From: Pseudohaliea rubra DSM 19751
GTDB taxonomy: Bacteria; Pseudomonadota; Gammaproteobacteria; Pseudomonadales; Halieaceae
Length of the DNA: 64,000 nt
Assembly (NCBI RefSeq): GCF_000764025.1
Contig: NZ_KN234745.1
Location: forward strand, 62,001 to 126,000
Direction of reading: 5' to 3'
Part shown: in pieces, positions 47,937 through 49,641 of the stretch
Layout: every line of letters begins with the position of its first letter
How positions within the stretch are numbered: position 1 is the stretch's first letter
Notes under the pieces: generated by a model
What the model was told of the DNA's origin: nothing
Database searches by the model: none
The model's input: only the letters and a program-made list of their open reading frames with translations
Position numbers and translations under genes: made by a program

Positions 47937-49190
47937 ATGGGCTATCAGCACATCCAGGTGCCCGAGACGGGTGAACGCATCACGGTCAATGACGACCACA
48001 GTCTCAGCGTCCCGGACAACCCGATCATCCCTTACATCGAGGGGGACGGCATCGGCGTGGATATCAGCCCGGTCATGATCAAGGTGGTCGACGCCGCTGT
48101 CGAGAAGGCCTATGGCGGCAGCAAGAAGATCTCCTGGATGGAGATCTATACCGGCGAGAAGGCCGCGGAACTCTACGAAGGCGACTGGTTCCCCGGCGAG
48201 ACCCTGGAAGCCATCAAGACCTACTCCGTGGCTATCAAGGGTCCGCTGACCACACCGGTCGGTGGCGGCTTCCGCTCCCTGAACGTGGCTCTGCGCCAGG
48301 AGCTGGACCTCTACACCTGCCTGCGCCCGGTGCGCTGGTTCGAGGGTGTGCCGTCGCCGGTGAAGAATCCCGGTGACTGCAACATGGTCATTTTCCGCGA
48401 GAACTCTGAGGATATCTATGCCGGTATCGAGTACCAGGCGGATACCGACGAAGCGAAAAAGGTCATTGATTTCATCATCAACGAGATGGGCGCCACCAAG
48501 ATCCGTTTTCCGGAGAACTGCGGCATTGGTATCAAGCCGGTATCGAAAGAAGGCACGCAGCGCCTGGTCCGCAAAGCGATCCACTATGCCATCGATCAGG
48601 ACCTGCCCTCGGTGACTCTCGTGCACAAGGGCAACATCATGAAGTTCACCGAGGGCGCCTTCCGCGACTGGGGTTACCAGCTTGCGCAGGAAGAGTTCGG
48701 CGGCGAGCTCCTCGATGGCGGTCCCTGGGTTGAAATCAAGAACCCGAACACCGGCAAGCAGATTATTATCAAGGACGTGATCGCCGACGCCATGCTGCAG
48801 CAGGTGCTGACCCGGCCGAAGGATTACAGCGTCGTCGCCACCCTGAACCTGAACGGCGACTACCTGTCTGACGCCCTGGCGGCCCAGGTCGGTGGTATCG
48901 GCATTGCGCCGGGCGCCAACCTGTCCGATACGGTAGCCCTGTTTGAGGCCACCCATGGCACGGCACCCAAGTACGCCGGTCAGGACAAGGTGAATCCCGG
49001 CTCGCTGATCCTCTCCGCCGAGATGATGCTGCGCCACCTCGGCTGGAACGAGGCGGCGGACCTGATCATCAACGGCATGAACGGTGCCATTCAGGCCGGC
49101 ACGGTGACCTACGACTTCGAGCGTCTGATGGAAGGCGCCACCCTGGTCAGCTGCTCCGGCTTCGGCGACGCGCTCATCGAGCACATGTAA
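47937..49190 (+). CDS. icd: Isocitrate dehydrogenase (NADP-dependent)
   Basis: The 417-residue protein follows the E. coli Icd sequence closely: [13 protein letters not shown], the substrate and phosphorylation loop [23 protein letters not shown] cut at its serine, [32 protein letters not shown] in pieces, and a C-terminal [21 protein letters not shown]. The regulatory serine is preserved, so AceK-type control is possible, though aceK is not seen. A strong terminator follows. The gene is preceded by TTGGAGA. Confidence 0.97.
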
Positions 49191-49207: not shown

Positions 49208-49236
49208 AAAGGCCCGCTTGTGCGGGCCTTTTTTTT
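49208..49236 (+). terminator. Rho-independent terminator of icd
   Basis: A nine-base stem AAGGCCCGC / GCGGGCCTT closes a TTGT loop and continues into a run of eight T (49229-49236). It begins 18 bases after the icd stop codon. Confidence 0.95.
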
Positions 49237-49315: not shown

Positions 49316-49390
49316 GGGGCAGCTGCTGGAGGGTGCGCCCAGTCGCTCCCCGATACACGCTTTGTGGGCGCACCCTCCAGCAGCCGCCCC
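49316..49390. repeat. Palindromic element 1 of an inverted pair in the icd-clpS gap
   Basis: Arms of 18 bases (49322-49339 and 49367-49384) pair perfectly; two more pairs extend the stem inward and, past one mismatch, GGGGC/GCCCC (49316-49320 and 49386-49390) extends it outward. Between them lies a 27-bp core (49340-49366) beginning CAGTCGCTC and ending GCTTTGTG. Its reverse complement is the core of element 2, while the stems of the two elements are unrelated. The gap has no credible coding sequence. Confidence 0.9.
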
Positions 49391-49439
49391 TACCGCCGTG
49401 GAGCCGGCCACGCCGCGCCGGGAGCTGCACACAGCGGCA

Positions 49440-49514
49440 GGGTTGAGGGCCGGATGCTTCTCTCACAAAGCGTGTATCGGGGAGCGACTGAGAGAAGCAT
49501 CCGGCCCTCAACCC
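49440..49514. repeat. Palindromic element 2 of an inverted pair in the icd-clpS gap
   Basis: Perfect 24-base arms (49440-49463 and 49491-49514; left arm GGGTTGAGGGCC...TTCTCT) flank a 27-bp core (49464-49490) beginning CACAAAGCG and ending GAGCGACTG. This is the exact reverse complement of the core at 49340-49366. The single-stranded loops of elements 1 and 2 are therefore complementary over at least 23 bases. No T-run follows the stem. Confidence 0.9.
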
Positions 49515-49641
49515 GGAATCGTGCGACGCACGGTTCCCACTCCCAGCAGCTCCCCCGACACCGCTGGGATTCAAGGAGATTTGTCTTATAATGCTTGCGT
49601 TGGTAACGAATCCGAGGGAGCCGAAGAGCAGTATCGTGAGC
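49515..49641 (+). promoter_or_regulatory. Region upstream of clpS: small dyads and consensus -10 box
   Basis: After element 2 come a short hairpin AATCGTGC-GAC-GCACGGTT (49517-49535, one G-T pair) and a weak dyad CCCAGC/GCTGGG (49542-49547 and 49563-49568). A perfect -10 box TATAAT is at 49587-49592; no good -35 box is seen at the usual distance. Transcription from here would start near 49599, inside the most upstream ATG frame, which favours a clpS start further downstream. Confidence 0.5.

Follow-up and report, generated by a model that had tools for sequence, protein, structure and literature searches.

A dispersed family of intergenic hairpins with a conserved apical loop and freely varying, paired stems in Pseudohaliea rubra and other bacteria

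Two facing hairpins between icd and clpS

The window, a 64,000 nt stretch of contig NZ_KN234745.1 of Pseudohaliea rubra DSM 19751, contains in the gap between icd and clpS two hairpins of 75 nt each, whose stems are mutually unrelated and whose loops are identical but inverted. The features of this region are the following.

47937-49190, plus strand: open reading frame with translation, upstream neighbour outside the element, which we take to be icd (isocitrate dehydrogenase) from its recognisable sequence and the naming in an earlier note
49210-49236, plus strand: rho-independent terminator of icd, a neighbour, AGGCCCGC-TTGT-GCGGGCCT followed by a T-run, read directly
49316-49390, plus strand: hairpin 1, type B, with stem 49316-49341 / 49365-49390 of 26 positions and one A.C mismatch (49321/49385)
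49342-49364, plus strand: conserved 23 nt loop of hairpin 1, GTCGCTCCCCGATACACGCTTTG
49391-49439, no strand: inter-hairpin spacer, which starts with TACCGCC; the other strand reads GGCGGTA/GGGG (slash, stem border), a GTAG foot
49440-49514, minus strand: hairpin 2, type A, with a perfect 26 bp stem 49440-49465 / 49489-49514 and the core on the minus strand
49466-49488, minus strand: second copy of the 23 nt loop, inverted, of hairpin 2
49587-49592, plus strand: TATAAT of the likely clpS promoter, a neighbour, read directly and conserved in a sister genome that lacks the hairpins

The earlier note on this DNA had described two hairpins with arms of 18 and 24 bp around a common inverted 27 bp core. 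Both hairpins are present, but their arms have 26 positions each, and the common core, which we confirm, is better described as a loop of 23 nt, with an A-T and a C-G pair closing it. The two loops can indeed pair with each other, as the note had pointed out; this follows directly from their inverted placement and makes a separate explanation superfluous. Within the window the core is found at the two hairpin sites only, the number expected by chance being zero. When the region was folded as RNA, the energy was -142.7 kcal/mol compared with -93.0 +/- 4.9 kcal/mol in shuffled sequences (z = -10.3), and DNA folding of each hairpin gave z values of -8 to -12 on both strands. No T-run of a rho-independent terminator was seen 3' of the hairpins, the flanks of which are of the TACCGCC / TGCCGC type, and no Rfam family reached its gathering score at the hairpins; miRNA-family matches were discarded, as they lay far under the gathering scores and reflect only a long hairpin.

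Copies in the host genome and beyond

In the host genome of the window (G000; 3.2 Mb, 86 contigs), the 26 nt core occurs 43 times if up to three mismatches are allowed, the reversed pattern not once, and the covariance model together with the core scan yields about 76 hairpins. Save for a few hybrid or decayed ones, the core copies examined in this genome are hairpin loops. The stems belong to two related types, A and B. Hairpins in opposite orientation within less than 300 bp of each other form 23 pairs, each of which combines one hairpin of type A with one of type B; the loops converge in 22 of these pairs, and in 21 of the 22 pairs scored both loops belong to a common sequence subfamily. 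Both types also include a longer variant of the loop, which contains an additional inner palindrome, AGCCTGACCCGGCCGG, and the sister species carries a related variant. Gene context was derived from a simple, ad hoc codon model, according to which all 76 hairpins are intergenic, mostly between tandem or convergent genes. Inverted doublets, extragenic position and high copy number, three features of REPINs, are all present.

A few copies have an unusual build. The hybrids at C1:6181 (L001) and C22:4434 (L038) combine the left arm of type A with the right arm of type B around a single loop, as would be left after loss of the central part of a doublet, and the loop at C5:5809-5885 (L104) is a half-core near-palindrome (GTCGCTCCACGA-TTCGTGGAGCGAC) that fits an inverted duplication within the loop.

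When one genome of each GTDB species was scanned for exact matches, two further carriers emerged, ERR599053_bin.87, a Halieaceae MAG, and HGW-Gammaproteobacteria-14 (G416), which belongs to a distant clade. The latter has four copies according to the covariance model, and its relatives G417 and G418 have one intact copy and three copies, respectively. A family-wide search returned core matches in other Halieaceae genera (42 in G1090, five in G1163, three in G1089, two each in G1165 and G1141, one in G1093), as well as two degenerate hairpins in G018; facing heterodimers occur in other genera as well. The CCCC-type core with at most two mismatches was found in no other sampled Pseudomonadales genome (1 in 392), a figure that understates the distribution since this pattern is blind to other loop variants. 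A class-wide search with model R2 returned this genome only, its first filter having scored few candidates per genome, so that absence elsewhere is not proven by it. Several of the host genomes compared are fragmented assemblies.

The phage search and a second viral scan gave no match, the only viral contig match (L043) was a chance hit inside a coding gene where the hairpin is absent, and two weak plasmid matches were likewise judged to be chance. One-mismatch matches in G419, G1018, G1022, G924, G1120 and G1127 were rejected because the hairpin is absent, and the model matches in G420 and G456 are other palindromes, one of them resembling a Pseudomonas-type REP. At L111 1501-1588 (G420) lies a distinct long palindrome of Pseudomonas-type REP-like sequence (TGTAGGAGCGACTG), which has AGTCGCTCC in common with the loop. 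Downstream of icd in G014 (L139), AGTCGCTCCTTGATA matches the loop consensus over 15 nt with no hairpin around it and may be due to chance. The hairpins at L110 1501-1575 (G417) and L114 1501-1575 (G418) stand in frame within a predicted ORF, close to its N-terminus, and therefore would be translated as 25 codons; ORF 1463-2959 of L110 begins with a lipoprotein-like signal. Comparison of G417 with G418 shows one stem block in which both arms have changed, from GG/CC to AA/TT.

In the sister genome G001, which has a ClpS of 95% identity, the icd terminator and clpS promoter are both kept with no hairpins between them, and the icd-clpS doublet was found in none of the other relatives whose gap was read. 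Five further sites (L001, L024, L032, L088 and L095) have no hairpins in G001; its gap at L032 has unrelated sequence and that at L095 a remnant like the outer motif. One site is common to both genomes, with the C9 doublet of G000 corresponding to a single hairpin in G001. The gaps at the empty sites have diverged too far between the two genomes for the exact element ends to be placed, and no clean target-site duplication could be made out, a possible direct repeat being visible by eye at C14:1425 only.

Loop conservation, stem covariation and strand bias

The loop is conserved where the stem is not. Between G000 and G416 the loops have an identity of 0.88 and the arms of 0.31-0.32, which is near chance, and for the distant clade as a whole (HGW-Gammaproteobacteria-14 and two relatives) the loops are 82-88% and the arms 31-42% identical to those of G000, with stems that are still 26 bp long and nearly perfectly paired. 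Hairpins of the same stem type and loop subfamily within G000 have identities of 0.93-0.97 in the loop, 0.72-0.79 in the arms and 0.39-0.62 in the 18 nt flanks. In an alignment of 27 hairpins, drawn from ten genomes, pairing extends to 94.4% of the cells, double changes affect 25 of the 26 pairs, and the covariation score is 1.005 compared with at most 0.204 with the partners slid; earlier alignments led to similar pairing and covariation results. Copies of the same type differ at 5.5-7.0 of the 26 stem positions, the arms within one hairpin mismatch at 0.9-2.4, and a stem length of about 26 is retained throughout the lineages. The earlier note had proposed that recognition lies in the core and that a stem may take any sequence that preserves its pairing; this was borne out by many intergenic copies with differing, nearly self-complementary stems. 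Many of the type-A hairpins of G1090 (L217-L235) share mismatches that recur close to the base of the stem, GGTCCCGG versus CCGCTCCC, and that recall the conserved bulge of E. coli REPs.

The mismatches that do occur are biased towards one strand. Among 115 hairpins, those with fewer than 19-20 paired positions being excluded, the strand with the loop as written has 113 A.C, 15 G.T and 106 other mismatches. A.C outnumbers G.T in ten genomes and equals it in one, with the reverse in none; the first five genomes contribute 65 versus 12 and the six found later 48 versus 3. Read on the complementary strand, the A.C cells are G.T or G.U wobbles, and we therefore take the excess to mean that wobble is tolerated on that strand. 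These counts are partly common by descent, but the distinct position/pair events still number 29 versus 10 (p = 0.003) in the first five genomes and 23 versus 3 in the later six. The excess is alike for hairpins of types A and B, which have opposite orientations within a doublet, it holds on both contig strands, and it is seen with the core sense (A.C:G.T 19:2) or antisense (23:6) to the flanking genes; therefore, the bias tracks the loop and not a transcript. The appearance of wobble tolerance might also be produced by a mutation bias specific to one strand, as most A.C cells derive from G-C pairs (46 A.C versus 9 G.T), but a small excess also in the few A-T-derived cases (9 versus 3) makes cytosine deamination less likely as the sole cause.

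The stem base has a motif on the same complementary strand that tolerates wobbles. It reads GTA/G at the 5' foot, in exact register, in 23 of 36 type-B stems of G000, and NNA/G at most type-A stems of this genome and at most feet in other Halieaceae genera; the copies in G416-G418 have no GTAG foot. This GTAG/NNAG foot recalls the GTAG guide of REP elements only in part.

Covariation of this kind might also arise from template switching between the arms during DNA replication, in which case the loop would seem conserved since the copies spread recently. Template switching is able to produce stems and to keep them paired (PMC8794818), and it can homogenise the arms of inverted repeats with inversion of the spacer (PMC8604942). 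In keeping with such events, the loop is inverted relative to its flanks in the copies C6:59342 and C3:75710, and the copy at C5:5809 has the palindromic half-core loop described above. However, clearly inverted loops amount to only 2 of 68, the loops remain 0.82-0.88 identical across lineages with near-chance stems and are better conserved than their flanks, and a bias of A.C over G.T is not predicted. We thus consider template switching an unlikely explanation of the family as a whole, while it may contribute to the upkeep of the stems, given the two inverted loops.

A role as RNA appears still less probable. Here, the hairpins would act as 3'-UTR or antisense stem-loops, the loop binding a protein or RNA and altering mRNA stability or termination. 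That the ad hoc codon model places all copies between genes, for the most part tandem or convergent ones, is compatible with this, as is the situation in G416, where each of the four copies lies a short way 3' of a gene and has its core in the sense orientation of the mRNA, and REPs are thought to act at the RNA level in some hosts (PMC3733652). Yet the mismatches of mRNA-sense copies are still A.C and not G.U (19 versus 2; in G416 3 versus 0), and the idea is weakened because the bias does not track transcription. The partners of a doublet are oppositely oriented, so that one transcript cannot satisfy both, and the Rfam comparison, with no family at its gathering score, lends no support. The more specific suggestion of the earlier note, an RNA switch between the icd terminator and the clpS promoter, is not supported: the element is spread genome-wide, the hairpins are absent from this gap in the sister genome and other relatives, and the wobble bias is independent of transcription.

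A putative mobile doublet and its relation to known repeats

On balance, we lean towards a REPIN-like, non-autonomous mobile doublet that is recognised via its loop as folded single-stranded DNA. The module would be the 75 nt hairpin, consisting of the conserved 23 nt apical loop on a 26 bp stem of nearly irrelevant sequence, and two such hairpins with different stems would face each other over a spacer. The folding strand would be the complement of the loop as written (loop CAAAGCGTGTATCGGGGAGCGAC), and folding would take place as single-stranded DNA during replication or transfer. A putative enzyme might then recognise the loop, probably together with the NNAG/GTAG foot at the stem base, and move or copy the doublet to intergenic sites. 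The data show the anatomy, the copy number, the conserved loop on a free but covarying stem, the A-plus-B composition of doublets, the strand bias and the lack of the hairpins at this site in the sister genome; that single-stranded DNA is the working form, that a protein recognises it and that mobility is provided in trans are inferences. Of the three readings offered by the earlier note, two are the best supported, namely a non-autonomous element and a target of mobility or recombination that is acted on in single-stranded form.

No Y1 transposase (RAYT/IS200-type; Y1_Tnp, PF01797) was found in G000, G001, G416, G417 or G418 in a search in which the positive controls gave signals, and a RAYT origin is hence unsupported in these five carriers. 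Among the best 25 of 101 Pfam families matched by genes adjoining the copies in other Halieaceae there is no transposase, the matches listed being housekeeping or metabolic families, and the PHROGs listed for adjoining genes name no transposase. A sequence-specific apical loop on a sequence-free stem scaffold of fixed length, with dispersed single-stranded-DNA sites moved by a non-Y1 enzyme, is a tentative proposal that we rate as conceivable rather than probable.

An ordinary MITE with terminal inverted repeats (GGTTCATCGCNNATTTCC), moved by a DDE transposase and carrying the hairpins as passengers, is very unlikely to account for the family. In many G000 copies GGTTCATCGCNNATTTCC does border the hairpins on the outside, frequently next to the T-tract of a terminator (with a noisy control), and a plain MITE is possible in G000, where the motif lies outside many doublets. 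However, the GGTTCATCGCNNATTTCC matches fetched from places away from hairpins showed no transposase and no parent insertion sequence, and the hairpins of G416-G418 and other genera lack GGTTCATCGCNNATTTCC in their near flanks. A search for a gene bearing this terminal motif led nowhere. The family resembles MITEs of DDE insertion sequences in being small, non-autonomous and intergenic and in the inverted terminal motif in G000; it differs in that a parent insertion sequence was not found and that all hosts share the hairpin module and not a terminal repeat.

The closest likeness is to REPINs and GTAG-type REPs, which are associated with RAYT / TnpA-REP and are likewise short multicopy intergenic palindromes arranged as inverted doublets with different partners, with strand-specific features, compensatory stem changes and a GTAG foot, here on the type-B hairpins. 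The claim in the earlier note that conservation is the opposite of that in REP-type repeats was only half right: the hairpins form REPIN-like inverted doublets in which one stem type has a GTAG foot. In a survey of REPs, stems had 5-13 bp and loops 2-20 nt, and head-to-head heterodimers were common (PMC3733652); here, the stem has 26 bp and the loop 23 nt, or about 38 nt. REPINs of SBW25 conserve their ends while the inner hairpin covaries (PMC3116915), whereas our family has a conserved apex and is roughly inside-out. TnpA-REP recognises folded single-stranded hairpins strand-specifically, and the tetranucleotide foot and the loop contribute (PMC8266576). Unlike REPINs, the five searched carriers have no Y1 transposase and G416-G418 no GTAG foot. 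With its oversized stem and loop, its partial GTAG foot and the absence of RAYT in five carriers, the family is REPIN-like but not proven to be a REP. The CGTC-type REPs share with our family the arrangement as palindromic doublets in head-to-head orientation, many of them heterodimers, and have no known transposase of their own, but their stems measure 8-9 bp and their loops 4-5 nt, and they occur mainly in alphaproteobacteria (PMC3733652).

Integron attC sites share the variable stem, the recognition of a folded strand and the strong preference for one strand. They conserve the box ends and extrahelical bases and have a variable terminal structure (PMC2727003), in contrast to the conserved terminal loop and nearly bulge-free stem seen here; conservation of the attC type, with stem-base boxes and a variable apex, was not observed in our hairpins, which are conserved at the apex. 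We found no description of a family with such an anatomy in the open-access literature searched, which misses most subscription papers. REPs, attC sites and other known palindromic repeats of the dispersed kind are recognised by a foot, by stem irregularities and by short loops. The combination of a fixed long loop with a drifting, well-kept stem provides more than 100 natural variants and makes the folding strand readable from sequence alone, and the family is a bacterial test case for long stems kept paired by selection or by template switching. If the loop is indeed recognised in single-stranded DNA, this would point to an enzyme for whose discovery the loop would be a clean sequence tag.
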